Of a stretch of DNA of 64,000 bases, positions 17,919 to 33,905 are shown piece after piece. How positions within the stretch are numbered: the first letter of the stretch is position 1; each line of letters begins with the position of its first letter. The translations under genes were made by a program, and so were the position numbers. The notes under the pieces were generated by a model that was given only the letters and a program-made list of their open reading frames with translations, searched no databases and was not told where the DNA came from. This stretch comes from Bacteroidales bacterium (GTDB lineage Bacteria > Bacteroidota > Bacteroidia > Bacteroidales > Marinifilaceae): NCBI GenBank assembly GCA_015061245.1, contig SUWY01000007.1, positions 30,718 to 94,717 on the forward strand, written 5' to 3'.

Positions 17919-19258
17919 AATTGTCCTGTTACCTTTAAATAGTTCAAATGAGCCAATTGCTCCTCTATGCAACTACAAATATAGTCATTATATGCCTTTT
18001 GCCAAACCGTTTGGGCTTCAAGCAGGTCGCTTAAAGGCTCCATGCCGGCTTTGTAGTGATTGGTGCTAACACGAAGGTTCTCATCAGCTTGAGTGATGGC
18101 GCTTTTGCACATGGTTTTAAGTTGTGAGGCCTCGTCTATTCTATTTAACGCAACTTGAATGTTTAGGTTTATCATGTCGTTTGCATGTGCCAACTCCAAT
18201 TCGGCAATCTTTATCTGCTCCTTTGCCTGTTTTACTTTGTTTCGCCCCTCGCCCCAATGGAATATAGGAATTTTAAGGGTGGCAATTGCGCTCATTGAGC
18301 CACCATTTAGCAACCTTTCACTTTCGGGTATCAGTGTTTTTGTAAAGAGAGTTGTTCCTTTGAGGGTTAATGCATTTGTGTAGCCATATCCAACCGTTGC
18401 AGCTGCCGATGGTAGATAGTCGCTCCTTGTGAATTTCAGACTCTCTTTCTGTAACTCAATACGTTTGTTGAGTATTGCTATCTCGGGAATCTCGGCAAAA
18501 GTGTAACTGTTATTAATCTCGGGAGTGTCATAATTCTCTATTCCCTCGGTAAGGGTGATATTGCTGTTAATGTCAACTCCAATTATTCTGCATAGATTCA
18601 TCTTTGCTACCTTAATGCCATTATAGGCGCGGTGTTCATTTAAGGAGGCTTGGTTAAGTTGTACCTGAACCTTTAGAAGATCGTTTTTCGATTTCATACC
18701 TACCTTTTCTGCTTTTGTAACGTCGTTGAGCAGTTTTGTAAGGGTCTCTTTATACTTGCTTGCAACTTTGGCAAGCTCTGTGGCCATTATACAGTTCCAA
18801 TAGGCTTGATCACACTCTACGATTATCTCATCTTTTCTCCTTGCTTCGTTAATTGAGTAAATCTCACTTCCAATCTCAGCCATCTTTGTACCACTGATAA
18901 TCTTTCCTCCCATATAGAGAGGTTGAGTTACCGATACACTTGCATTAAATGAGTTCTGTAATCCAATGCCGATACCCATTGATGGAATTGTAAGGCCTTG
19001 GGCTATTGGAAGATCGGGAGTTGCTGCCTCTAACTCTTCGGAGTTATGCAGATAGAGTGCGTTTGCACTAATGTTGGGTAAAAAGTTACTCTTTGCCTCT
19101 TTTACAGCCAGCTCGGCTTCTCGCGTTTGGGCCTCTGCAATGGCAATCTGTTTGTTCTGTTTTAATGCCATATTACGGCAAGTTGCAATATCGAGCTCTT
19201 GTGCCTTAAGCGATATTGTAAATAATATGGTAACAATGAGTATTGATAGTTGTTTCAT
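17900..19258 (-). CDS. TolC family outer-membrane efflux protein
   Basis: A 452-residue TolC-type channel component with a signal peptide (MKQLSILIVTILFTISLKAQ) and the two-fold TolC repeat rich in coiled-coil segments (ALKQNKQIAIAEAQTREAELAV, then IAELELAHANDMINLNIQVALNRI). It forms the outer-membrane tunnel for the RND pump encoded just upstream. Its ATG overlaps the pump stop (ATGA), and its 3' end overlaps the mgtC-like gene. Confidence 0.92.
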   Translation of the reverse strand: MKQLSILIVTILFTISLKAQELDIATCRNMALKQNKQIAIAEAQTREAELAVKEAKSNFLPNISANALYLHNSEELEAATPDLPIAQGLTIPSMGIGIGLQNSFNASVSVTQPLYMGGKIISGTKMAEIGSEIYSINEARRKDEIIVECDQAYWNCIMATELAKVASKYKETLTKLLNDVTKAEKVGMKSKNDLLKVQVQLNQASLNEHRAYNGIKVAKMNLCRIIGVDINSNITLTEGIENYDTPEINNSYTFAEIPEIAILNKRIELQKESLKFTRSDYLPSAAATVGYGYTNALTLKGTTLFTKTLIPESERLLNGGSMSAIATLKIPIFHWGEGRNKVKQAKEQIKIAELELAHANDMINLNIQVALNRIDEASQLKTMCKSAITQADENLRVSTNHYKAGMEPLSDLLEAQTVWQKAYNDYICSCIEEQLAHLNYLKVTGQLWTKEY

Positions 19259-22200
19259 TGCTTTTTGCTGTTATCAATTTTGAAAAATAGTGAGTACAAA
19301 ACAGGAATAAAGAGTAGGGTGATAATTGTGCCTACAAATAGTCCTGCCATAATAGTTACGGCGAGTGAACCGAATAGTTCATCACCAATAAGGGGTATCA
19401 TACCTAAGATAGTTGTAAGCGAGGCCATCATTACCGGACGGAATCGGCTTGATGAGCTGTCAAGCAGGGCTTGAATAGGCTCTTTTCCGCTATTCAATTC
19501 CAGAATGATTTCGTCCATAAGGACAACGCCGTTCTTAATCATCATACCAATCAATCCCAATACGCCTACAATTGCCACAAAACCAAAACTCTTGCCTGAT
19601 AGCAGTACTCCAAAAACAACTCCCACAAGTAGCAGCGGTACGCAGCATAGAATAATTGCAGGTTTCTTGAAGTCTTTAAATAACATTATCAGAATTGCAA
19701 CCATGGCAACAATTGCCAAAGGGAAGTTTCCGAATAGGTATTGTGTCGATTGCTTACTTGCTTGATACTCACCTTCCCAGCTATACGAATATCCTGTTGG
19801 AAGTTCAATCGCTTCGATTGCCGGGGCAATGGCTTTACGCGCACTTTCGGCAGTATAGCCTGAGGCCGGCTCACATTGAGCTCTCATAGCTCTTACACCA
19901 TTGTACCGAATAACTATTGGTTCCTCCCATTTGATGTTTATTCCCTTTACCGCTTGGTTTAATGGGATGGTTCCTAAAGTGCCGGCAAGAATATCCTGTT
20001 CGCTGACGCTACCGGTGAATAGTCCGGTCAGAGTCTCTTTGTTAAGATTCTGCAATGGAGGCATAGTGCTGAAGATGGGAGTATTATCAAGCTCATTAAT
20101 CGGCTTTCCCTTGCTATCCACGCTCTTTAGGTAGATCGAGTACCTCTCTTTGCCAATATAGAATGTTCCGGTAGGGATTCCTCCATTGGCAGTAAGAAGC
20201 GATAGACCTACATCTTTTCTGCTAAGTCCGGCTCTGCGAGCTGTAGGCTGATTATAATCAATCTCAATGACGGGTTGCATATTTGACCAATCATTACATA
20301 CCAATCTGGTGAATGGAGACTCATTCATAATCTGTTCTGCCTGCCGGGTAAGTTGTTTTAAAACAGCTGGATCGGGACCTGAAAACTTAACCTCAATGGG
20401 GAATTTTTTATACATCAGATTGTATCGTTTAACCCTTGAATAGGCATCGGGATAGTGAGTTGTTATGTAGTTTTGAATGGTATCAATATGTTTGACTAAC
20501 TCCTTAGGCGATGTAAAATCAACAATTAGCTCTCCATACGACAATGAGGGGGTAGCAATACTACGAACTAAATTGTATCGGCTTGGTGTCCCTCCAAGCG
20601 ATATTGTCACATTTGTGATATATGGTTGCTCCAATAACCATGCAGATACCTCTTTTAGCTCTCTCTCAACCTTTTGTGGCGATGCGCCCTCGTCCAATTT
20701 GTACTCAATATAGCACTGCTCGTAGTTCATATCGGGGAAGAACTCCTGTGGAATGAATCTGTAGCAGTATATGCTTAAAGCTACCAGAGCAACTGCACAA
20801 AAAACGGTACTCTTTTTGTGTAAAACGGTGAATTTCAATATTGAGCGAAGCAGTTGGTAGGGCTTGCTATTGTATAACTCAATATCCGATTTAACTTTAA
20901 CCTGTTTCAACCATCGGTCGGCCATAATAGGAACATGTGTTAAGGCCAAAACCCAGCTCAATAGCAGGGAAACTGCAAGTACTATAAACAGGTCACGAAC
21001 ATAGACTCCTGCAGTATCGGGTGATAGAAATATAGGAAGGAATGCCAAAATTGCAATCAAGGTTGCTCCGAGCAGAGGCATGGCAGTTTTGTTGCCAATT
21101 GAGGTTAGTGCTGCTTGGCGAGGCTTCCCTTTTGCCAAATCAACTAAAATACCATCGATAATCACAATTGCATTATCAACCAGCATACCCATGGCGACAA
21201 TCAACGAGCCTAATGATACCCTTTGCAGAGTTCCATCGAGAGTTCCGAGAATCATGATAGAGCCAAAGATAATTACAATCAAACTGATTCCTATTATAAC
21301 ACCACTTCTGATTCCCATGGAAACCATAAGGATTATAATAACAATGGCTACCGATTCTAACAGATTTGTCAGAAAAGTGGTAAGGGCATTAGTAACTCTT
21401 TCAGGTTGAAAGAATATCTTATGAAACTCAACCCCTGCAGGAATTCTTTCACCCTTTAGCTCTTCAATCTTCGACTCAATGGCACCGCCCAGTTTCGTGA
21501 TATCGGTATTGCGCTGTGCTGCAATTGAGATTCCTAAAGCCCTCTCTTCATTGTGGAACATCTGGTTACGGGCAGGCTCCTCATATCCCGATGTAATATC
21601 GGCAATATCGCGTAATCGCAGTTGATCATCTTCGTGGCCTTGAATCAGAAGATTACCAATATCATTTACATTTTTATATCGGTCATTAACCTTTATCTTG
21701 ATACGTTTGTCGTCAGTCTCATAGTAACCTGCATATACTGTGCTGTTTTGACCGTTCAGCGTGTTAAGCACCTCGGCAGGGTGGACTCCAAGGTTGGCCA
21801 TTCTATCTTGGAGAATGGCTATGTTTATTACAGGAGTTCGCTCGCCATAAATATCTACCTTTGATATGCCGGGAATGTTCTGAAACTCCTGTTTTGCCAA
21901 CTCGGCATAATTTCCCAGTTCGGTATCGGAAAATCCCTCGCCCGTAATAGCATAGAACATTCCATAAACATCACCAAAAGCATCTAAGACAACCGATTCT
22001 CCAACTCCGGCGGGGAGTGATGCTTGTATGTCGTTGACCTTTCTACGCAATATGTCATAGAACTGCTCCACCTCGTTTGCCGGGGTTGTAGTGACAAGCT
22101 CTACGTTTATTATAGACAAATCATTCATCGAGCGACTCTCAATGCTGTTTATATTGTACATTGAACGAATGCTCTTTTCTATAGGGTCGGTAACCTCAAG

Positions 22201-22383
22201 CTCAACCTCGTGTGCAGATGCTCCGGGGTAGGTGGTAATCACCATTGCCTGTTTTACCTTGATTTCGGGATCCTCAAGTTTGCTCATGTTGTAAAAGGCA
22301 ATAGAGCCACCTACAACCATGACCAAAACTATAAAACGAATTAGCAGGTTGTTATTCAACGCCCATTTTCCAAGATCTATCAT
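19255..22383 (-). CDS. RND efflux pump permease (AcrB-like, HAE family)
   Basis: A 1042-residue inner-membrane proton-driven exporter. It has an N-terminal transmembrane helix, two large periplasmic loops, and helix clusters in each half (LESVAIVIIILMVSMGIRSG; FPLAIVAMVAILIMLF). Conserved stretches include GMLVDNAIVIIDGI in TM4 and GLIGMMIKNGVVLMDEI in TM10/11. TM4 carries Asp-Asn where AcrB has the Asp407-Asp408 pair, a variant also expected in some RND subfamilies. Substrates (drugs, bile acids or others) cannot be told. Both ends overlap neighbouring genes by ATGA, giving a tightly coupled operon. Confidence 0.94.
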   Translation of the reverse strand: MIDLGKWALNNNLLIRFIVLVMVVGGSIAFYNMSKLEDPEIKVKQAMVITTYPGASAHEVELEVTDPIEKSIRSMYNINSIESRSMNDLSIINVELVTTTPANEVEQFYDILRRKVNDIQASLPAGVGESVVLDAFGDVYGMFYAITGEGFSDTELGNYAELAKQEFQNIPGISKVDIYGERTPVINIAILQDRMANLGVHPAEVLNTLNGQNSTVYAGYYETDDKRIKIKVNDRYKNVNDIGNLLIQGHEDDQLRLRDIADITSGYEEPARNQMFHNEERALGISIAAQRNTDITKLGGAIESKIEELKGERIPAGVEFHKIFFQPERVTNALTTFLTNLLESVAIVIIILMVSMGIRSGVIIGISLIVIIFGSIMILGTLDGTLQRVSLGSLIVAMGMLVDNAIVIIDGILVDLAKGKPRQAALTSIGNKTAMPLLGATLIAILAFLPIFLSPDTAGVYVRDLFIVLAVSLLLSWVLALTHVPIMADRWLKQVKVKSDIELYNSKPYQLLRSILKFTVLHKKSTVFCAVALVALSIYCYRFIPQEFFPDMNYEQCYIEYKLDEGASPQKVERELKEVSAWLLEQPYITNVTISLGGTPSRYNLVRSIATPSLSYGELIVDFTSPKELVKHIDTIQNYITTHYPDAYSRVKRYNLMYKKFPIEVKFSGPDPAVLKQLTRQAEQIMNESPFTRLVCNDWSNMQPVIEIDYNQPTARRAGLSRKDVGLSLLTANGGIPTGTFYIGKERYSIYLKSVDSKGKPINELDNTPIFSTMPPLQNLNKETLTGLFTGSVSEQDILAGTLGTIPLNQAVKGINIKWEEPIVIRYNGVRAMRAQCEPASGYTAESARKAIAPAIEAIELPTGYSYSWEGEYQASKQSTQYLFGNFPLAIVAMVAILIMLFKDFKKPAIILCCVPLLLVGVVFGVLLSGKSFGFVAIVGVLGLIGMMIKNGVVLMDEIILELNSGKEPIQALLDSSSSRFRPVMMASLTTILGMIPLIGDELFGSLAVTIMAGLFVGTIITLLFIPVLYSLFFKIDNSKKQ

Positions 22384-23441
22384 AACAAACCTCCAATATT
22401 TGTTGAACTACTCTCTTTTAACGGAGTGACCTTCTCGCCATCTTTCAGGCTATTAACTCCGGCCGATACGACAATATCGCCCTCGTTCAAACCGTTTGTA
22501 ATAAGGACCATAGAGTTTCGGTCGATAGAGTCAATGTTTACTTTTCGGGTTTCAACGGTCGATGATGTAGGATTGTATATCATTACGTATGTTGCCCCCT
22601 CTTTGTTGAATATTGCAGAGAGTGGAATTTGTAAACGTTCTTCAGATTCGTGTCGTTGTGTAATCGTTACATTTGTACTCATTCCGGGGGTAATGTTTTT
22701 GTCACTCTCTTTGAATTGAAGCTTTACATTGTATAGCTGATTCATATTTGCTTTAGGCGATACTCCGATTAACTCCAGTGGGAATACTCTGTTTGGCATA
22801 ATGTCGAAAGTGCAGCTATATGAATCAAAATTATCTCTTTGAGTGTAACTCTTTATTGGAATGTTTATGGTTACCTGGTTAGGTGAGTTGCCGATCATGG
22901 AGATTACTGCCATGCCTGCCCCGACAGTCTCATTCTTATCGAAGATGATCTTTTGGATATATCCATCGAATGGTGCTCGGAGTTTTGTGTCGTTAAGAGC
23001 ATCTTGGTGTGCTTTAAGTTTTGCAGTGATTTGCTGCAATCCGTACATAGCTTTCTCATAATCATTCTCTGCAACGCTGCTATCCTGATATAGCGAAATT
23101 ACTCTTTCTGCTTGCCCCTTTATCGCATTATACTCGGCAGTTGTAGCTTTTAATTGAGTTTGATAGTCGCGAGGGTCCATTATGGCAATAATATCGCCTT
23201 TTTTGACAAAATCGCCCTGGTTGACGGGAATCTCTTCTATGGTTCCGGCTACTTTGAATGCGATATTTATATCTTTCCCTGCCTCAACTTTACCGGGGAA
23301 AGTTAGCTCCTCTGCTCTGTTATAGAGTTGTGCCGTGTCGATTTTTACACTCTTAATGAGGGGCACTTGTGCATGCTTTTGGTTGCATCCTGTGCTGATA
23401 CATAGAAGGATTGCAATTACAGGTGTGTATGTCTTTCTCAT
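22380..23441 (-). CDS. RND efflux membrane fusion lipoprotein (AcrA-like)
   Basis: A 353-residue periplasmic adaptor that joins the pump to TolC. The start at 23441 gives a lipoprotein signal (MRKTYTPVIAILLCISTGC), so it is probably lipid-anchored in the inner membrane. It has the biotinyl-lipoyl-like halves (KVAGTIEEIPVNQGDFVKKGDIIAIMD and LRAPFDGYIQKIIFDKNETV) around a helical hairpin, and a C-terminal beta-barrel and proximal domain. It is first in the operon. No regulator gene is adjacent. Confidence 0.93.
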   Translation of the reverse strand: MRKTYTPVIAILLCISTGCNQKHAQVPLIKSVKIDTAQLYNRAEELTFPGKVEAGKDINIAFKVAGTIEEIPVNQGDFVKKGDIIAIMDPRDYQTQLKATTAEYNAIKGQAERVISLYQDSSVAENDYEKAMYGLQQITAKLKAHQDALNDTKLRAPFDGYIQKIIFDKNETVGAGMAVISMIGNSPNQVTINIPIKSYTQRDNFDSYSCTFDIMPNRVFPLELIGVSPKANMNQLYNVKLQFKESDKNITPGMSTNVTITQRHESEERLQIPLSAIFNKEGATYVMIYNPTSSTVETRKVNIDSIDRNSMVLITNGLNEGDIVVSAGVNSLKDGEKVTPLKESSSTNIGGLL

Positions 23442-23598
23442 GTGGTTAATGTTTTTATGTTCTATTGTACACACAAAGTTCATAAATTATATAGGCAAAA
23501 CCTTGGGCAGATTTGGGCTATTCTTGGTTTAAAATACCTTTTCTTTAGATGTTTTAAAAAGTAGTATTTATACCACTATGTTTATATGCACTTTGTGA

Positions 23599-23606: not shown

Positions 23607-23626
23607 TTGCACTATGTTTGATTGGA

Positions 23627-24319
23627 ATGGGGAAAATAATTGAGATATTAAATAGGGATATACACTTTAGCGAGGGGTTGAATAGCTGTATGAATTGTGG
23701 TGTTTGTACCGCTGTTTGTCCAGCGGCAGAGTTTTATAATTACGATCCGCGAATGGTTGTGGATACTGTTCAAAGAGGCGATGAGGCTGAAATAGAGGAG
23801 CTTCTTAAGAGCAATACAATTTGGTACTGTGGAGAGTGTATGTCTTGTAAAACCCGTTGCCCCCGTGGTAATACCCCGGGAGAGATTATTATGGCACTGA
23901 GAGCTGCTTCGATAGAGACCGGTCTTTTTGTTGAGTCGGAAAAGGGGCGTCAACAATTTGCTTTGAAACGTAATATAGCCGATTCTGTGCTTAAAGTGGG
24001 TTATTGTGTATCTCCCGATATAGCTGTACCCGAGAAGCATCCGGAACAGGGACCTATATGGGAGTGGATTTGTGCAAATAAGGAGCGGGTGTATGAGAGG
24101 GTTCATGCAAATTATGATGGTAATGGAGCCGGAGCGTTGAGACATGTGGATGAGGCCTCGCTCGATGAACTCAATAATATTTTTCAAGTTACTGGGGGCG
24201 CCTCTTTTATGGATGCAATTGAGAATTTTTCCGTAAAAAAGGCTGAGCAACTTGGGATGAGTGTTGATGAGTATTTGGATGAAATATCTACACAGAATAG
24301 TGGAAATCACGGTAGGTAA
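23627..24319 (+). CDS. HdrC-like iron-sulfur protein, first gene of Hdr-like operon
   Basis: A 230-residue protein with two [4Fe-4S] motifs, Cys21-24-27-31 (CMNCGVCTAVCP) and Cys68-71-74-78 (CGECMSCKTRCPRG), as in HdrC of heterodisulfide reductases and similar subunits. The N-terminal 100 residues match the HdrC type; the following 130 residues are an extension with no recognised domain. It should pass electrons between the flavin subunit (HdrA-like) and the HdrB-like subunit encoded next. The start is ATG 23627; the track start is TTG 23618. The next gene follows after 2 bp. Confidence 0.88.
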   Translation: MGKIIEILNRDIHFSEGLNSCMNCGVCTAVCPAAEFYNYDPRMVVDTVQRGDEAEIEELLKSNTIWYCGECMSCKTRCPRGNTPGEIIMALRAASIETGLFVESEKGRQQFALKRNIADSVLKVGYCVSPDIAVPEKHPEQGPIWEWICANKERVYERVHANYDGNGAGALRHVDEASLDELNNIFQVTGGASFMDAIENFSVKKAEQLGMSVDEYLDEISTQNSGNHGR

Positions 24320-24321
24320 TT

Positions 24322-25392
24322 ATGATAAATGAAGGAAAGAAAAAGGTTTGGGATCTGTATCAAAAGGAGATTGCCGACAATAAATATTATTATGCTCGCA
24401 GTTGCATAAGGCAGACTTTTTTTCCTGCTTCTGAGTGGGCTTTTATTGATATATTGAGAAATAGGTTGGGTAAAGATATATTTGATGATCCTAAACATAC
24501 AACGTGTTCCGGTATAGGATATCACTCTGATGTGGTGCCTTTCCAGACAACCATGACTGTCATTGCCCGCCATTTTGCTTTGATGACCGAGGCCGGTTAT
24601 GAGAATATAACACCTTCGTGTATAACATCGTTCGGCATATATACCGAGGTGTTGCATGCGTGGGAGGAGCATCCAGAAATTTTGGAGCGTGTACGAGAGG
24701 ATTTGTATAAAGCTACAAAACGCGAGTTTAATGTTCCAAAGAATTTGGCCCACACCTCTGATGTGATATATAAATTTAGAAATCAGATAGCTGCTCAAAT
24801 GACAAATCCCTTGGTAGATGTCCATACAGGTAAACCTTTGCGCGTAGTTGACCACATAGGGTGTCACTATGCTAAGATGTTTCCATCAAAGGGAGTTGGA
24901 GGTGCTGAGTTTCCGGCAGTATTGAGTGGCATGGTAGATGCCTGGGGTGGTGAGTGTATCGACTATCCTGAGCGCAGACACTGTTGTGGCTTTGGATTTA
25001 GAAACTATTTGGTACAGGCAAATCGTGGTTACTCTGTTGCAAATTCCATGAAAAAATTGGAGTCAATGGAGCCGTACGAGCCAGACTTTATTGTTACGAA
25101 TTGTCCGGGATGTGGTATGTTTCTTGATAAGTGGCAGTACACAATTGGAGAGATGAGTGGTAAGAGTTATGGTAAGAATGGTTATGGAATTCCGGTTTTG
25201 ACCTACGAAGAGATGGCAGGCTTGGTGTTGGGATATGATCCTTGGGATTTAGGATTACAGATGCATCAGGTTGCTGTAGAGCCATTGCTTGATAAGATGG
25301 GAATAAGTTATGATCCCGATAAAAAGTATTGCGATGCTGAAGGAAAATTAATATCACTTCCAAAGCGTCCAACAGGAATAAGGAGTATATGA
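24322..25392 (+). CDS. HdrB-like CCG-domain protein with degenerate N-terminal motif
   Basis: A 356-residue protein of the HdrB type. The C-terminal CCG motif is complete (IGCHYAKMF, RHCCGFGFRN and TNCPGCGMF), able to bind a noncubane [4Fe-4S] cluster. The N-terminal counterpart is degenerate: Cys28, then Cys62-Ser63 in place of Cys-Cys, and Cys100-x-x-Ser103 in place of Cys-x-x-Cys. Heterodisulfide reductases use two such clusters to split a disulfide, so loss of ligands suggests one cluster or another substrate. No membrane segment is seen. It overlaps the HdrA-like gene (ATGATG). Confidence 0.87.
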   Translation: MINEGKKKVWDLYQKEIADNKYYYARSCIRQTFFPASEWAFIDILRNRLGKDIFDDPKHTTCSGIGYHSDVVPFQTTMTVIARHFALMTEAGYENITPSCITSFGIYTEVLHAWEEHPEILERVREDLYKATKREFNVPKNLAHTSDVIYKFRNQIAAQMTNPLVDVHTGKPLRVVDHIGCHYAKMFPSKGVGGAEFPAVLSGMVDAWGGECIDYPERRHCCGFGFRNYLVQANRGYSVANSMKKLESMEPYEPDFIVTNCPGCGMFLDKWQYTIGEMSGKSYGKNGYGIPVLTYEEMAGLVLGYDPWDLGLQMHQVAVEPLLDKMGISYDPDKKYCDAEGKLISLPKRPTGIRSI

Positions 25393-26396
25393 TGAAAAGC
25401 GTTGTGATAATAGGCGGTGGAGTTGCCGGATGTAAAGCGGCCGTCGAGCTTGCAAGTATAGGATATAGAGTAACTGTTGTTGAGAAGGAGTGCAGTTTAG
25501 GTGGAAATCTCAATAATTGGGATAGACTTTTTCCCGACGGGAAAAGAGCATCTTGCTTGGTAGATGCGCTAGTTTCCGATGTCGAGAAACGTGGGGTTAC
25601 TGTATTGACCAATGTTGAACCTGAAAAGGTGGAACTAATTGATGATTGTTATAATATTTTGTTGAGTGATAAGGGGTTGCTGAAAGCTGACGCAGTGCTT
25701 ATTACTACCGGTTTTACCACTTTCAATGCTCAGCGTAAGGAGGAGTATGGATATGGTATCTATAGGAATGTTATAACCTCGGTCGATTTGGAGAATATCT
25801 TTGCCGCCAATTTGTTAAGTAGAGAGATTGGATGCGTTGGAATGGTGCATTGTGTTGGTAGCCGAGATGAGAAGTGTGGTAATATGTATTGTTCCAAAGT
25901 ATGCTGTATAACTGCCGTAAAGCAGGCAATAGAGTTGAAACAGATGCTTCCAAATGCCGAGATATTCTGCTTCTATATGGATATGAGAATGTTTGGGCCT
26001 GGGTACGAAGAGTTGTATCGTGAGGCTCAAGAGCAATATGGAATTAAATTTGTCAGAGGAAGAGTCTCGGAGGCGAGCGAGGATTCTGAGGGCAGAGTGG
26101 CAATCAAGGTAGAGGATACTCTGGTTGGCAGACCAATGAGAATGAAACTTGACAGATTGGTGTTAATGGTTGGAATGGAGCCCTCGCCCGGAACTAATAG
26201 ATTGGCAAAATTGTTTGGTGTGGAGATGAGAGAGAGTGGCTTTATCAGAGGTGTAGATCCTCATATGGGGGCCAATATAACCAATGTAGATGGAGTGTTT
26301 GTGGCTGGGGCGGCAACATCGCCGATGAATACAACCGACACTATAAATGATGCGTGTGCAGCGGTTTTGCAGATTGATAAATATCTGAGAAAATAG
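25389..26396 (+). CDS. Short HdrA/QmoA-like FAD protein
   Basis: A 335-residue flavoprotein. The N-terminus has the FAD-binding GGGVAGCKAAVELASIGY and VVEKECSLGGNL; the centre has the HdrA signature CVGSRDEKCGNMYCSKVCC (residues about 155-175), and the C-terminus ends with VFVAGAATSPMNTTDTINDA. It lacks the added ferredoxin and thioredoxin-reductase-like domains of full HdrA, so it is the size of a reduced QmoA-like subunit. Electron bifurcation as in methanogen HdrABC is therefore not supported. Either ATG (25389 or 25392) could start it; both overlap the previous stop. Confidence 0.88.
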   Translation: MMKSVVIIGGGVAGCKAAVELASIGYRVTVVEKECSLGGNLNNWDRLFPDGKRASCLVDALVSDVEKRGVTVLTNVEPEKVELIDDCYNILLSDKGLLKADAVLITTGFTTFNAQRKEEYGYGIYRNVITSVDLENIFAANLLSREIGCVGMVHCVGSRDEKCGNMYCSKVCCITAVKQAIELKQMLPNAEIFCFYMDMRMFGPGYEELYREAQEQYGIKFVRGRVSEASEDSEGRVAIKVEDTLVGRPMRMKLDRLVLMVGMEPSPGTNRLAKLFGVEMRESGFIRGVDPHMGANITNVDGVFVAGAATSPMNTTDTINDACAAVLQIDKYLRK

Positions 26397-26403
26397 TATT
26401 TGT

Positions 26404-26733
26404 ATGGTATCTTTTGGATTTTCAATTTTACCGACTCGAGCAATTGAGTATGATAAGAACGATAAGGGTTGTGCTGATTATGTTGCATTGCATGTGCCCA
26501 GCTCTTCTGCCTGTATAGGGTGTGGAGGTTGCAGTGCAACATGTTCGGCAGGGAATTTTACCGAATTTAATATAAGAAAAATTCAAATGCTCATGAAACG
26601 CGGTGAGAATCAATTGTATATGGAGCAACTGCATAAATGTATGCTTTGCGGCAAGTGTCTTGCTGTGTGTCCGAGAGGCGTGGATACCCGTGGAATGATA
26701 TTGGCAATGATTGAGTATATGCGCAAAAAGTAA
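26404..26733 (+). CDS. Second HdrC-like ferredoxin protein
   Basis: A 109-residue iron-sulfur protein with two [4Fe-4S] motifs: Cys37-40-43-47 (CIGCGGCSATC) and CMLCGKCLAVCPRG near residue 80. It is a minimal HdrC-like electron carrier. It lies 7 bp after the HdrA-like gene and 6 bp before the membrane subunit, so it may connect the cytoplasmic flavin module to the membrane module. The first gene of the operon is a second, longer HdrC, so the operon holds two. Confidence 0.85.
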   Translation: MVSFGFSILPTRAIEYDKNDKGCADYVALHVPSSSACIGCGGCSATCSAGNFTEFNIRKIQMLMKRGENQLYMEQLHKCMLCGKCLAVCPRGVDTRGMILAMIEYMRKK

Positions 26734-26739
26734 TTTCTC

Positions 26740-28548
26740 ATGTTTACATTTACATCACCTAATTATGAACCGTTTGTGTGGCCATTCTCTATAGGAATGT
26801 CAGCTTTGCTTGTCTATATAACCATTAAATATATAAAGTGGATATATGAGTTTGATAAAGCCAATAGAGTAAAGATTCTGAAAGGACTCTTCTCGTTGGG
26901 AACACTTCGTTCCGTTAAAGAGATATTTTTAGAGAGTTTGGTTCACAGAAAGATATATAGAGAAAATCCCATGCTGGGATATATGCACATGTGTTTCGGA
27001 TTGGGGTGGGCTCTGCTCATCATTGTGGGCCATTTGGAGTCGTCGATATATCAGGCAAGTTGGGCAAATACTCCCTATTACTCAATATTTTTCTACTATT
27101 TTTTGCCTGCCGGGGCCGATTATTGGGGACACGAGGTGTTTGGATTCCTAATGGATTTAATTCTGCTTATGATATTGAGCGGATTGTTTATCGCATGGGG
27201 TAAGCGCTGGTATAGCAGAATAGTAGGAATGAAAAAAACAACCAAGCAGCGCCCCTATGACAGATTGGTAAAAGGGGTATTATGGTCTATATTCCCGCTT
27301 CGATTTTTGGCTGAGAGTATGCAATCGGCTATTACAGGTCATGGTAGTTTTTTGACTCACTCGACAGGCGAGTTTTTTGCATCATTTCTACCGGTTGAAA
27401 CATTATCATATCCTTTATGGTGGGCCTATTCGTTATCGTTAGGAATATTCTTTTTATTGATACCAGGTTCCAGATATATGCATATACCAACAGAAATGGT
27501 ATATATTTTCTTAAAGAACTGGGGAGTGAAGCTTGATGTAAAGTTGGGCCCGAATGGAGAGTTAAAAGGACTTTCAAAATTTGAAATCTATTCATGCTCA
27601 CGCTGTGGAATATGTCTGAATCAGTGTCAGTTGCTCTCTTCGCTTAATAATCAATCAACCCAACCGGTATATTTTTTGCGTAAGGTGCGAGAGGATGTTG
27701 AACGTGGTAATGATATCAATAATTGTCTGATGTGTGGACGTTGCGAGGAGATGTGTCCGGTTGATATCGATTTGAATGCACTACGCATGATGCAGCGACA
27801 GGACCATTCTGTGGTTACAGATGAGACATACTCTTATATTACAACTAATAAAGAGTATTCAGGATGTGCTAAGGTTGCATATTTTGCGGGGTGTATGGGG
27901 CATTTGACCCCAGGAGTTATTGCATCGATGCGTAAAATTTTCAATAAGGCGGGAGTTGAGTACCATTTTGTTGATGAGGGAGGTGGCGTGTGTTGCGGAA
28001 GGCCGTTGCGATTATCAGGAAACAGAGCAGCAGCCGACGTTCTTATGCAAAAGAATAGTGATCGGATAGTGGCCACAGGAGCAGAGATACTTGTTACAAG
28101 TTGTCCAATATGTTATAAGAGTTTCAAAGAGGAGTATGCGTTGCCAATCAAGGTTATGCACCATACAGAGTATATTAATATGTTGATGGATTGTGGTGCT
28201 TTGAATATTCGCAAAGGTAAAGAGCGTTTGGTATTTCACAATCCATGTGAGTTGGGGCGAGGGTGCAATGTTGTGGAGGCGCCGCTGAGAGTATTGGATG
28301 GTGCCGGCGAGATTGTGGCTACCGAGTTTGATGGCAGAGCATCGCTTTGTTGTGGAGGCTCATTGGCAAATACGGTTATCTCGCCAATTGAGCGAGGTAG
28401 AATAGCTGCCGATGCACTGAGTCGATACACATGTAGTGATCCGGATTGTGTTGTCACAGCTTGCCCATTGTGTAAAAAGAACTTTGCTAAGGTGAATCAA
28501 CCTGTTCCGATTCGCGATATTGCTGAGGTTGTTGCTGAGAGGTGTTGA
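26740..28548 (+). CDS. Membrane cytochrome b / HdrD-like fusion (DsrMK- or HdrED-like)
   Basis: A 602-residue membrane protein. About 250 N-terminal residues form five likely transmembrane helices with histidines suited to haem b (GYMHMCFGLGW, IIVGHLE, YWGHEVFG, RYMHIPTEM), like HdrE, DsrM or NarI. The C-terminal part has two [4Fe-4S] motifs (CSRCGICLNQC, CLMCGRCEEMCP) and two complete CCG motifs (AGCMG/VCCGRP/SCPIC and NPCELG/LCCGGS/ACPLC), as in HdrD or DsrK. The fusion would join quinone oxidation or reduction in the membrane to an iron-sulfur active site in the cytoplasm. It is last in the operon and is followed at once by simple repeats. The physiological substrate is unknown. Confidence 0.88.
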   Translation: MFTFTSPNYEPFVWPFSIGMSALLVYITIKYIKWIYEFDKANRVKILKGLFSLGTLRSVKEIFLESLVHRKIYRENPMLGYMHMCFGLGWALLIIVGHLESSIYQASWANTPYYSIFFYYFLPAGADYWGHEVFGFLMDLILLMILSGLFIAWGKRWYSRIVGMKKTTKQRPYDRLVKGVLWSIFPLRFLAESMQSAITGHGSFLTHSTGEFFASFLPVETLSYPLWWAYSLSLGIFFLLIPGSRYMHIPTEMVYIFLKNWGVKLDVKLGPNGELKGLSKFEIYSCSRCGICLNQCQLLSSLNNQSTQPVYFLRKVREDVERGNDINNCLMCGRCEEMCPVDIDLNALRMMQRQDHSVVTDETYSYITTNKEYSGCAKVAYFAGCMGHLTPGVIASMRKIFNKAGVEYHFVDEGGGVCCGRPLRLSGNRAAADVLMQKNSDRIVATGAEILVTSCPICYKSFKEEYALPIKVMHHTEYINMLMDCGALNIRKGKERLVFHNPCELGRGCNVVEAPLRVLDGAGEIVATEFDGRASLCCGGSLANTVISPIERGRIAADALSRYTCSDPDCVVTACPLCKKNFAKVNQPVPIRDIAEVVAERC

Positions 28549-28551
28549 AGG

Positions 28552-28643
28552 GTGAACAGTGAGGAGTGAACAGTGAGGAGTGAACAGTGAGGAGTGAACA
28601 GTGAGGAGTGAACAGTGAGGAGTGAACAGTGAACAGTGAGGAG
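28552..28643 (+). repeat. Tandem 14-mer GTGAACAGTGAGGA
   Basis: Five perfect copies of GTGAACAGTGAGGA (28552-28621) and a partial sixth start 3 bp after the stop of the membrane subunit gene. The array continues directly into the 7-mer array. Confidence 0.95.
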
Positions 28644-28706
28644 TTAGGAATTAGGAATTAGGAATTAGGAATTAGGAATTAGGAATTAGGAATTAGGAAT
28701 TAGGAA
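28644..28706 (+). repeat. Tandem 7-mer TTAGGAA, nine copies
   Basis: Nine perfect copies of TTAGGAA in a row. Short copies of the same unit occur at 31296-31345, 36491-36508 and 59093-59139 and at the end of the neighbouring lipoprotein gene. There are no spacers, so it is not a CRISPR array. Confidence 0.95.
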
Positions 28707-30196: not shown

Positions 30197-31297
30197 ATGG
30201 CAACAGAGAACGATATAAAGTATATGCAAATGGCAATGGAGCTTGCCGGAAACGGACATGGATTTGTTCACCCGAATCCATACGTAGGGGCTGTTATTGT
30301 CAAGAATGGCAAGATTATAGGTAGCGGATGGCACACCTGTTATGGTAAACTTCATGCCGAACGCGAGGCCTTTGCAAATCTTACCGAGAGTGCCGAGGGA
30401 GCAACAATGTATGTAACCCTTGAACCATGTTGCCACTACGGAAAAACCCCTCCATGTACCGAAGCAATCATTGAGAACAGAGTTTCTAAAGTAGTAGTAG
30501 GTCTGCTTGACCCCAATCCCAAAGTTGGTGGAAAGGGAATAGAGATTTTAAGAGCTGCAGGAATAGAGGTGGAGTATGGCTTGTTGCAGGATGAATTAAA
30601 GGAGCAGAACCGAATATTCCTTAAATATATCACAACCGGCATGCCCTGGGTGGCAATGAAGAGTGCCATGACTCTCGATGGCAAGATTGCTACACACACA
30701 GGTGATTCAAAGTGGGTTTCCGGAGAAGAGTCGCGTAACTATTCGCAATGTATGCGTAATGAGTTTGCTGCAATCCTGGTAGGAATAGGAACGGTACAGG
30801 CTGATAATCCAATGCTGAATTGCCGTTTATGCGGTGCAACTCACCAGCCAATCAGAATTATTGCCGATAGTGGAGCACATATAGCTCTTGACAGTGCCAT
30901 TGTTCAGAGTGCAAAGGAGTATAGAACAATCGTGGCTCATACATTTAAGGGCGAGGTCTCAAAGTTAAACCAATTGCGCGATATGGGGGTAGAGACTCTT
31001 CTTTGCGAGGAGTGTAACGGTCATATAGATGTAACAGATATGCTTCGTAAGCTTGGAGCAATGAAGATTGACTCTGTTATCCTTGAGGGAGGTGGTACGT
31101 TGAACAACTCATTTGTGGCGGCAAAGGCTATTGATGAGGTGTATGCATTTGTAGCTCCGAAGATTGTTGGTGGCAGCGATGCAAAGACTCCGGTTGAGGG
31201 CGATGGTGTTGATATGATGGCTGATGCGCTTGAACTTCACTGTATTCGCGTTGAGCGTTGCGGTGATGATGTATTGATACGGGGAAGGGTGAGATAG
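30197..31297 (+). CDS. ribD: Bifunctional riboflavin deaminase/reductase RibD
   Basis: Carries out the deaminase and reductase steps that turn the first GTP-cyclohydrolase product into 5-amino-6-ribitylamino-uracil phosphate. The 366-residue protein has an N-terminal cytidine-deaminase-like zinc domain (HAERE, then PCCHYGKTPPCTEA) and a C-terminal reductase domain from about residue 150 (AMKSAMTLDGKIATHTGDSKW, ILEGGGTLNNSF). It is the first gene after the FMN riboswitch. A 230-bp gap with repeats separates it from ribE. Confidence 0.96.
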   Translation: MATENDIKYMQMAMELAGNGHGFVHPNPYVGAVIVKNGKIIGSGWHTCYGKLHAEREAFANLTESAEGATMYVTLEPCCHYGKTPPCTEAIIENRVSKVVVGLLDPNPKVGGKGIEILRAAGIEVEYGLLQDELKEQNRIFLKYITTGMPWVAMKSAMTLDGKIATHTGDSKWVSGEESRNYSQCMRNEFAAILVGIGTVQADNPMLNCRLCGATHQPIRIIADSGAHIALDSAIVQSAKEYRTIVAHTFKGEVSKLNQLRDMGVETLLCEECNGHIDVTDMLRKLGAMKIDSVILEGGGTLNNSFVAAKAIDEVYAFVAPKIVGGSDAKTPVEGDGVDMMADALELHCIRVERCGDDVLIRGRVR

Positions 31298-31345
31298 TTA
31301 GGAGTGAACAGTTAGGAGTTAATTAGGAATGAGGAATGAGGAATA
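31296..31345 (+). repeat. Short TTAGGA / GTGAACAG simple repeat
   Basis: A mixed patch (GTTAGGAGTGAACAGTTAGG, then AATTAGGAATGAGGAATGAGG) of the two simple units also found at 28552-28706. It begins at the ribD stop codon. Confidence 0.75.
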
Positions 31346-31363
31346 AAATAAATACCGCTTTAT

Positions 31364-31415
31364 AAGTCCCCCTTATTAGTGCAGGCGAACTTGTGAGCCA
31401 AACGAAGGGGGATTT
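31364..31415 (+). repeat. Imperfect inverted repeat in ribD-ribE gap
   Basis: AAGTCCCCCTT and AAGGGGGATTT (one mismatch, G-T pair in RNA) are separated by 30 nt and followed by AGGGGGTTGG. It could be a hairpin or a copy of a small interspersed element. There is no U-run, so a terminator is unlikely. Confidence 0.5.
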
Positions 31416-31527
31416 AGGGGGTTGGTAGATGAAATTAATATATAAATCTACTAAGAAAGATTTGATAGATTGACAAATAATGTAGACTAAACCGACGAGT
31501 TTAGCATATCACATATTTAGGATTTAT

Positions 31528-32160
31528 ATGTTTACAGGAATTGTTGAGGAGATAGGAGAGGTTAAGTCGATTAAGAGGGGAGCAAGGAGCTTTACTCTAT
31601 GTATAGCTGCGGAGAAGGTGTTGCAGGGTACTCGCATTGGTGATAGTATTGCTGCGAATGGAGTGTGTTTGACAGTAACCAATATTGGTGATGGATGCTA
31701 CTATGCCGATGTTATGCCCGAGACAATGCGTTGTACAAATTTTGCATCGTTGAGTGTTGGCTCGCCATTGAATCTGGAGCGCGCTTTGGCGGTGGGTGAT
31801 CGTCTTGGCGGACACATTGTATCGGGTCATATTGATGGTACAGGAAGAGTGGCAAACCTTGAGCGCGATGATAATGCAATATGGGTTACAATTGCGGCCT
31901 CGCCCGAAATAATGAAATATATTGTGATGAAGGGCTCAATAGCTATTGATGGTGTGAGCCTTACTGTTGCGTATGTGGATAGTGGAACTTTTAAGGTGTC
32001 GATAATTCCGCATACTCAGGAGGAGACCACTTTGACTAGAAAAAAGGTGGGCGATATTGTCAATCTTGAAAACGATGTTTTGGCACGATATGTAGAGAAG
32101 TTGATGCAGAGACAGAGTGGAGGATTGAGTTTGGAGTTTTTAAAAGAGAATGGATTTTAA
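31528..32160 (+). CDS. ribE: Riboflavin synthase, alpha subunit
   Basis: Converts two molecules of 6,7-dimethyl-8-ribityllumazine to riboflavin. The 210-residue protein has two lumazine-binding repeats: the first starts MFTGIVEEIGEV with NGVCLTV, the second (from about residue 100) GHIVSGHIDGTGRV with IAIDGVSLTV. Length is normal. It follows a repeat-containing gap after ribD, and a small hairpin (CTAAAC/GTTTAG, 31487-31504) lies just before it. ribBA follows after 21 bp. Confidence 0.96.
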   Translation: MFTGIVEEIGEVKSIKRGARSFTLCIAAEKVLQGTRIGDSIAANGVCLTVTNIGDGCYYADVMPETMRCTNFASLSVGSPLNLERALAVGDRLGGHIVSGHIDGTGRVANLERDDNAIWVTIAASPEIMKYIVMKGSIAIDGVSLTVAYVDSGTFKVSIIPHTQEETTLTRKKVGDIVNLENDVLARYVEKLMQRQSGGLSLEFLKENGF

Positions 32161-32181
32161 AATATTCATAAAGATATAACT

Positions 32182-33429
32182 ATGGATAAAGAGTTGAAAT
32201 TTAATACAATCGATGAGGCTTTACAGGATTTGAAGCAGGGAAAGATTGTTGTGGTAGTTGATGATCCTGATCGTGAGAACGAGGGCGACTTAATCTGTGC
32301 AGCGCAGTTTGCAACTCCTGAAAATATTAATTTCATGGCAACTTATGCAAAGGGATTGATTTGTATGCCAATGAGTTATGAATATACAGTGAAGTTGGGA
32401 TTGGAGCAAATGGTGGCGCACAATACCGACAACCACTGCACTGCATTTACAGTCTCAATTGACCATATCAATACAACTACAGGAATTTCGGCATACGAGC
32501 GTTCAATTACTGCAATGAAGTGTGTTGAGGATGGAGCAAAGGCAATTGATTTCCGCCGTCCGGGCCACATGTTCCCGTTGGAGGCACGTCGAGGAGGCGT
32601 GTTGGAGCGTATGGGACACACCGAGGCAACCGTGGATTTGATGAGAATTGCAGGGTTGAAGGAGTGTGGTTTGTGTTGCGAGATTATGCGCGAGGATGGA
32701 ACTATGATGCGCACTGAAGAGCTATGCGAATTTGCAAAGGAGCATGACTTGAAGATAGTTACTGTGACCGATTTGATTAATTATCGTCGTCATACCGAGC
32801 GGTTGATGGATAGAGTGAGCGTAGCTGATTTGCCAACAAAGTATGGCACTTTCAAGGCTTATGGTTATGTAAATCGCATTACTAAGGAGCATCACGTTGT
32901 TCTTGTTAAGGGCGATGTCTCAACTCCCGAGCCTGTGCTTTGTCGCGTACACTCGGAGTGTTTGACAGGCGATGCCTTCGGTTCTTTGCGTTGTGACTGT
33001 GGAGAGCAGCTTGCCGAGGCGTTGCGCCGTATCGAGAAAGAGGGTAGAGGTGTTCTGCTCTATTTGCGCCAGGAGGGTCGTGGAATTGGTTTGATAAACA
33101 AGTTGCGTGCATACGAGTTGCAGGACGAGGGTATGGATACTGTTGAGGCGAACATTGCTCTGGGATTCAAGGCCGATTTGCGAGAGTATGGTACAGGTGC
33201 GGAGATATTGTCAGATCTTGGAGTTCGCAAGATGCGTTTAATGACCAATAACCCGTTGAAAATTAAGGGACTTGATGGTTATGGATTGGAGATTGTATCT
33301 CGTGAACCAATTGAAATGACCTGTAACGAAAAGAATGAGTTCTACATGTACACCAAGTATGCAAAGATGGGACACATGCTTCATGTTAAGGATTTAAAAG
33401 ATGTTAAACCAAGAAAGTGTAACAAATAA
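32182..33429 (+). CDS. ribBA: Bifunctional DHBP synthase / GTP cyclohydrolase II
   Basis: Starts both branches of riboflavin synthesis. The 415-residue fusion has the N-terminal 3,4-dihydroxy-2-butanone 4-phosphate synthase domain ([27 protein letters not shown]) to about residue 205, and a C-terminal GTP cyclohydrolase II domain with the zinc motif [20 protein letters not shown] and RQEGRGIGL. Both active sites look intact. ribH follows after 14 bp. Confidence 0.97.
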
Positions 33430-33443
33430 TAAATAACAATATT

Positions 33444-33905
33444 ATGAAAGTAATGGAAGGTAACTTGACCAGTGCAGGTCAAAAGATTGGAATTGTGGCA
33501 TCGCGTTTCAATGAGTTTATCACAGGAAAATTGTTGGGCGGTGCAATTGATGCTTTTGTTCGTCACGGAGGTAACGAAGAGGATATTACAGTAGCATGGG
33601 TTCCCGGAGCATTCGAGATTCCGTTAATTGCCAAGAAGATGGTTGAGAGTGGAAAGTATGATTCAGTTGTGTGTCTTGGAGCTGTTATTCGTGGTGCAAC
33701 CCCTCACTTTGATATGGTTGCTAACGAGGCTACGAAAGGAATTGCAACTGTAGGTTTGCAGTGTGGTGTGCCTGTAATCTTCGGAATTCTTACAACTGAT
33801 TCAATTGAGCAGGCTGTTGAGCGTGCAGGTACAAAGGCAGGAAATAAGGGCTTTGAGGCTGTTACCAGTGCAATTGAGATGGTAAATTTAATTCGCAAGG
33901 TTTAA
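33444..33905 (+). CDS. ribH: 6,7-dimethyl-8-ribityllumazine synthase
   Basis: Condenses the products of the two RibBA/RibD branches to the lumazine that RibE uses. The 153-residue protein shows [49 protein letters not shown] (active-site histidine) and [20 protein letters not shown]. It is the last rib gene and is followed by a terminator. The four rib genes cover all committed steps except the phosphatase and RibF. Confidence 0.97.

Follow-up and report, generated by a model that had tools for sequence, protein, structure and literature searches.

The window analysed here, a 64,000-nucleotide stretch of DNA from a Bacteroidales bacterium of the Marinifilaceae (assembly GCA_015061245.1, contig SUWY01000007.1, positions 30,718 to 94,717), carries at 23627–28548 a plus-strand operon of five genes related to heterodisulfide reductase (Hdr), designated C1, B, A, C2, and BD in that order. 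The operon is real and strongly conserved, and it is undescribed as far as the searched literature shows; no paper on the five-gene unit was found in a search that covered subscription journals thinly. The combination resembles an sHdr head joined to an EtfD/HdrDE-type membrane arm, matching neither. From the genes, their cofactor residues, the predicted fold, the conserved order, the co-inheritance, and the lineage of A and B documented here, we propose, with slightly less than even confidence, that the five genes encode one membrane-attached thiol/sulfane-sulfur:menaquinone oxidoreductase, whose assembly into a complex, quinone partner, substrate, and direction of reaction are inferred.

All five open reading frames (ORFs; Table 1) were found where a preliminary description of this stretch, made from the letters alone, had placed them, with gaps of +2 bp (C1–B), −4 bp (B–A, a 4-bp overlap), +7 bp (A–C2), and +6 bp (C2–BD). 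The start of C1 is the ATG at 23627, the alternative upstream TTG at 23618 being disfavoured by the homologues. Pfam and NCBIfam models identify the five proteins as HdrC-, HdrB-, HdrA-, and HdrC-like and as a dicluster/CCG protein, all far under the curated equivalog cut-offs. Subunit motifs and folds agree with the earlier view of an Hdr-type unit in which a soluble module is accompanied by a cytochrome b–HdrD-like fusion. Among the motifs listed at that stage, the paired 4Fe-4S sites, the HdrA cysteine signature, the haem-type histidines, and the CCG motifs of BD are borne out, whereas the N-terminal CCG motif of B proved degenerate. Invariance of motifs was judged on 61–72 homologues per protein.

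Table 1. The five genes of the operon, in window coordinates.
Gene	Position	Strand	Product
C1	23627..24319	+	HdrC-like (sHdrC1-type), 230 aa, two [4Fe-4S] sites
B	24322..25392	+	HdrB-like (probably sHdrB1-type), 356 aa; C-terminal CCG intact, N-terminal CCG degenerate
A	25389..26396	+	Short HdrA (sHdrA-type) flavoprotein, 335 aa, FAD (flavin adenine dinucleotide) site and HdrA cysteine signature
C2	26404..26733	+	Second small HdrC-like dicluster protein, 109 aa
BD	26740..28548	+	Cytochrome b–dicluster–CCG–CCG fusion, 602 aa, five predicted transmembrane helices

The membrane arm is defined by BD, whose predicted structure (pLDDT 85) contains five helices that are membrane-spanning in length and has only one full-length structural match, EtfD (9OJN; E 1.2e-19, TM 0.70). 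In mycobacteria, EtfD passes electrons to menaquinone; its His78 and His241 are the haem ligands, Phe85 and Phe230 lie at the menaquinone, and Thr539 and His583 stand where Hdr has its reactive sites (PMC13083937). The invariant histidines of BD are H69, H83, and H248, and in the profile alignment H248 and the likewise invariant F237 align with His241 and Phe230 of EtfD, although the membrane part of this alignment scores poorly and the support there is the fold match. The haem-bearing part is followed by a dicluster site (C286–C296, C329–C339) and by two CCG sites, C385/C418/C419/C455/C458 and C503/C537/C538/C575/C578, both complete, with all ten cysteines kept, as in catalytic Hdr and unlike in EtfD. 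Since C419 and I457 of BD occupy the positions of Thr539 and His583 in the same alignment, both CCG sites belong to the Hdr type. The preliminary description had electrons passing between a cytoplasmic thiol/disulfide or flavin donor and menaquinone; the EtfD fold of BD makes the menaquinone link plausible.

On alignments and trees, the C1–B–A part falls with the sHdrC1/B1/A lineage of sulfur oxidisers. A contains the invariant cysteines C155/C168/C172/C173 and a GxGxxG flavin site, and it aligns end to end with the sHdrA of Hyphomicrobium (6TJR), whereas methanogen HdrA is matched in two separate parts. The Bacteroidales and cyanobacterial A proteins form a starred clade with 6TJR (96/95), apart from the methanogen, Ilyobacter, and Qmo-like HdrA proteins; 6TJR is a long branch in this tree, and its exact placement is less sure. 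B matches the CCG family at 41.9 bits and has a complete C-terminal site (C181, C221, C222, C261, and C264 across 72 homologues). Compared with HdrB (5ODC chain B), its second site is intact, whereas in the first site Thr61 replaces Cys41 and Ser103 replaces Cys81, the residue with the bridging catalytic role in HdrB (PMC13083937). With one intact CCG site, B is therefore no methanogen-type two-cluster heterodisulfide reductase, and the operon has its two-cluster site in BD. The degenerate first CCG pattern recurs in the B1 protein of Picosynechococcus and in an Acidithiobacillus plasmid protein, and the tree unites these two with the Bacteroidales B proteins against HdrB/B2 (support 100/99), with long branches. 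B is probably of the sHdrB1 lineage, 6TJR being the single curated sHdr reference and the Acidithiobacillus protein being called sHdrB1-like from its motif rather than by curation. The Acidithiobacillus ferrooxidans plasmid pACF1 (787–4490) encodes, with no further hdr gene in the part displayed, a 446-aa HdrB1-like protein near hemerythrins and a gene annotated as glycine cleavage H protein, possibly the lipoate-binding protein LbpA.

C1 and C2 are matched by Fer4_8 at 44 and 37 bits, respectively, with the HdrC models under cut-off for both. Each has eight invariant cysteines arranged as two CxxCxxC...C sites (70 homologues of C1, 61 of C2), and C1 is 48.5% identical to its Picosynechococcus counterpart.

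The order C1–B–A–C2–BD is exact in 92 of the 113 loci that have at least one core gene, some of which come from the same genomes; the remainder comprise two C1–C2–BD–B–A units, three B–A pairs alone, 11 C1–B pairs alone, and other partial sets. Among 295 sampled Bacteroidales genomes, 89 carry both B and BD, three only B, none only BD, and 203 neither (Fisher p about 1e-72, shared ancestry uncorrected), which places the operon in about a third of them. The kept order together with this co-occurrence shows that the clustering is not due to chance, and the preliminary description, which had looked to a survey of Bacteroidales genomes and taken absent clustering as grounds for rejection, is upheld in this respect. 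Where B–A stands alone (genomes G001, G120, and G218), BD is located elsewhere in the same genome, and in these as well as in loci L076 and L115 the split or rearranged unit keeps both halves in the genome. All 33 BD relatives in the GTDB genome set are titled Bacteroidota/Bacteroidales, including Butyricimonas and Sanguibacteroides; for the window's genome, the closest relative found is a Marinifilaceae metagenome-assembled genome from deer rectum (92% in BD). Among 396 Bacteroidota genomes, mostly of other orders and classes, the window's own was the sole one in which BD was detected. In several Salinivirgaceae-type loci (L010–L017), A and C2 are parted by roughly 0.1–1.5 kb with no assigned gene.

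In the oxidoreductase that we propose, BD would sit in the membrane with its b haem serving menaquinone, and within BD electrons would run between the b haem and two noncubane clusters by way of two cubane [4Fe-4S] clusters. Acting as electron wires, C2 and C1 would bridge BD to A and B. A, with FAD and [4Fe-4S], and B, with a single working noncubane cluster, would together make up a soluble, sHdr-like head acting on the sulfur substrate. Because menaquinone generally has a less negative potential than thiol/disulfide couples, sulfur oxidation that delivers electrons to menaquinone would be the easier direction. The likely reaction would be oxidation of a thiol, a persulfide, or carrier-bound sulfane sulfur with reduction of menaquinone, and the menaquinol could be reoxidised, for instance, by fumarate reductase; the reverse, a menaquinol-driven reduction of disulfide or polysulfide, may also occur. 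A narrower version, possible and distinctly more tentative, is that the operon represents an LbpA-independent, menaquinone-linked branch of sHdr, through which fermentative Bacteroidales of gut and sediment would anaerobically oxidise thiols, methanethiol, or sulfane sulfur and feed fumarate respiration.

As the preliminary description had recognised, the window alone leaves the substrate unspecified; gene neighbourhoods in genomes other than this one narrow it towards sulfur or thiol compounds. Outside Bacteroidota, the closest relative found is a six-gene unit on a plasmid of Picosynechococcus sp. PCC 7003 (NZ_CP016476.1, 14230–19970), C1–B1–A–C2–B2–sulfide:quinone reductase. Its C1, B, and A are 48, 42, and 44% identical to those of the operon and stand in the same order, whereas BD is replaced there by a soluble B2 and by the reductase, whose gene begins 5 bp after B2 and scores 333 bits to the Aquifex and Acidithiobacillus enzymes. 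At locus L135 (genome G024), the five genes are preceded, with one opposite ORF between, by DsrE–DsrE–TusA–FlpD–HdrA/Qmo-like–HdrA/Qmo-like–QmoC-like genes and followed after about 12 bp by a pyridoxal phosphate enzyme whose best models are methionine gamma-lyase, under cut-off. C1–B paralogues, which form one clade (95/96), occur as pairs lacking A, C2, and BD (L050, L052, L054, L056, L057, L059, L060, L063, L065, L085, and L132); in L132 and L059 such a pair is separated by 36 bp from a methionine gamma-lyase-like gene, and in L050 it adjoins YeeE, two TusA, two DsrE, and rhodaneses. For four C1/B loci a TusA gene is no more than 14 kb away, against about 0.2 expected (Poisson p about 6e-5), a figure to be read as a lead and not as a test, the distance having been picked once the data were seen and the locus count being approximate.

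Several observations weigh against the sulfur reading. Most of the sulfur neighbourhoods belong to C1–B paralogues or to other genomes and not to the window itself, and at the genome level TusA is not associated with the operon (17/40 carriers, 14/40 non-carriers). No conserved flanking partner gene stands around most of the main operons; the unit is thus self-contained. Menaquinone biosynthesis markers (MenD/MqnA-type) do not discriminate, being present in 31/40 carriers and 32/39 non-carriers, and are undetected in nine of the 40 carriers, which may take up quinones.

Two further gene groups were seen around C1/B genes. A recurrent cluster with a Crp-type regulator, DsrE, TusA, FlpD/MvhD-like, and HdrA/Qmo-like proteins (L133, L134, L135, and L050), which in L134 and L135 also has a QmoC-like protein, is apparently a second, different Hdr/Qmo-type sulfur system; in L134, a broken HdrB fragment with two in-frame stops (G064:C15:107952-108188) lies beside it. 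Many of the C1–B paralogue pairs adjoin tandem MinD-like ATPases with ferredoxin domains, NifX/FeMo-Co-like small proteins, DUF134, Mrp, and a radical SAM protein, an assembly that we take to resemble the orange-protein genes of Desulfovibrio.

The foremost alternative, unlikely in our judgement, leaves sulfur out: low-potential electrons from ferredoxin, NADH, or hydrogenase would be taken up by the flavin of A and delivered via BD to menaquinone, perhaps with electron confurcation. HdrA flavoproteins bifurcate in methanogens, and an isolated operon without a substrate enzyme suits a general electron donor. The weak enrichment of [FeFe]-hydrogenase among carriers (34/40 against 23/40 non-carriers, p 0.013, ancestry uncorrected) points the same way, although six of the 40 carriers lack the enzyme. 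A, however, aligns with sHdrA and is short, missing the N-terminal and ferredoxin domains that bifurcating HdrA has; the operon also has no linked NADH module (Flox, NuoEF-like), and the sulfur neighbourhoods would be left unexplained. The likeness to HdrABC of methanogens extends to homologues of all three subunits, which score far under the HdrA/B/C cut-offs, with B further set apart by its single intact CCG site.

Operation in the manner of methanogen HdrDE, the reductase of CoM-S-S-CoB, as a menaquinol-dependent reductase of a low-molecular-weight or protein disulfide (an unknown heterodisulfide), is rather improbable. That direction would be uphill unless driven, given that menaquinone usually lies at a higher potential than thiol/disulfide couples; the operon has no linked gene for a thiol cofactor, and the conserved A and B would have no explanation. 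The idea draws on the architecture of BD, a cytochrome b with an HdrD-type protein that has two complete CCG sites, which are fused here, unlike in HdrDE. It also draws on the modelled overlay of HdrDE on EtfD, the fold match of BD (PMC13083937).

That the operon is the sHdr–LbpA system proper, converting lipoate-bound sulfane sulfur to sulfite, is very unlikely. The sHdr clusters of Hyphomicrobium, Aquificae, and Sulfolobales are of type I (shdrC1B1AHC2B2) or type II (shdrC1B1AHB3-etfAB) (PMC11582611), and the system requires LbpA (PMC6067878). The operon shares with them the lineage of A and probably of B, the order C1–B–A with a later C2, and, with the Acidithiobacillus plasmid homologue, the degenerate first CCG of B. 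Unlike them, it has no sHdrH gene and no etfAB in the cluster, the membrane fusion BD takes the place of B2/B3, and LbpA does not seem to be needed. No protein of the GCV_H family, which includes LbpA, was found in carriers G004, G018, and G123 (98–99% complete) or in the window's own genome (83.5% complete), and the match table has no entry for G221 or G229; the sHdr–LbpA pathway was rejected on the near-complete carriers that have no GcvH/LbpA-type protein.

An ETF:menaquinone oxidoreductase of the EtfD/EMO type, tied to acyl-CoA metabolism, is barely credible, even though BD shares with EtfD the full-length fold, five transmembrane helices, the aligned haem histidine and menaquinone phenylalanine, and a dicluster with two CCG domains, and although the window's genome has etfBA adjoining an acyl-CoA dehydrogenase-like ORF: ETF occurs in 272 of the 295 Bacteroidales genomes, against the third with the operon, and BD lacks T539 and H583 of EtfD, keeps both Hdr-type catalytic sites, and in intact operons is always accompanied by C1, B, A, and C2. 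No ETF was detected in G029, G178, and G221, three carriers with a completeness of 99–100%; on gene content, a role of BD as a plain ETF dehydrogenase was rejected.

The families first named as relatives, HdrABC, QmoABC, and DsrMK, are thus not the closest: C1–B–A groups with sHdr by alignment and tree, and BD with EtfD by structure. QmoABC similarly combines an HdrA-like flavoprotein with a haem b quinone module; it differs in having two HdrA proteins rather than one. QmoC consists of a dicluster domain followed by a cytochrome b, without CCG domains, and the qmoC model gave no match to BD and 53 of 300 bits to C1. DsrMK likewise pairs a cytochrome b with a CCG protein, whereas the DsrK model reaches only 33 of 400 bits. 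Placement of all five genes inside one characterised complex, which the preliminary description named as an outcome that would overturn its reading, did not occur; from each of sHdr, EtfD, HdrABC, and Qmo the operon departs in a defining feature examined here.

Anaerobic Bacteroidales from gut, rumen, and sediment commonly carry the unit, and its presence in the cultured genus Butyricimonas makes it testable. A sulfur/thiol:menaquinone oxidoreductase would give the energy metabolism of Bacteroidales a further point of electron entry and would couple an sHdr-type head to a membrane module of the EtfD/HdrDE type, bringing together three families usually discussed apart. Should it be an LbpA-independent sHdr branch, about a third of Bacteroidales would have an unrecognised sulfur-based electron input.

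The window's genome measures 2.2 Mb. Promoter motif matches in the window are at chance level, and the few terminator-like matches all lie inside genes. Just 3' of BD, at 28552–28706, are tandem arrays of a 14-bp unit, GTGAACAGTGAGGA (5.8 copies), and a 7-bp unit, AGGAATT (9.7 copies). Upstream on the opposite strand (19255–23483, −) are RND efflux permease and membrane-fusion genes, and downstream, at 30197–33905, are the riboflavin genes ribD, ribE, ribBA, and ribH, which were not seen conserved around other operons.

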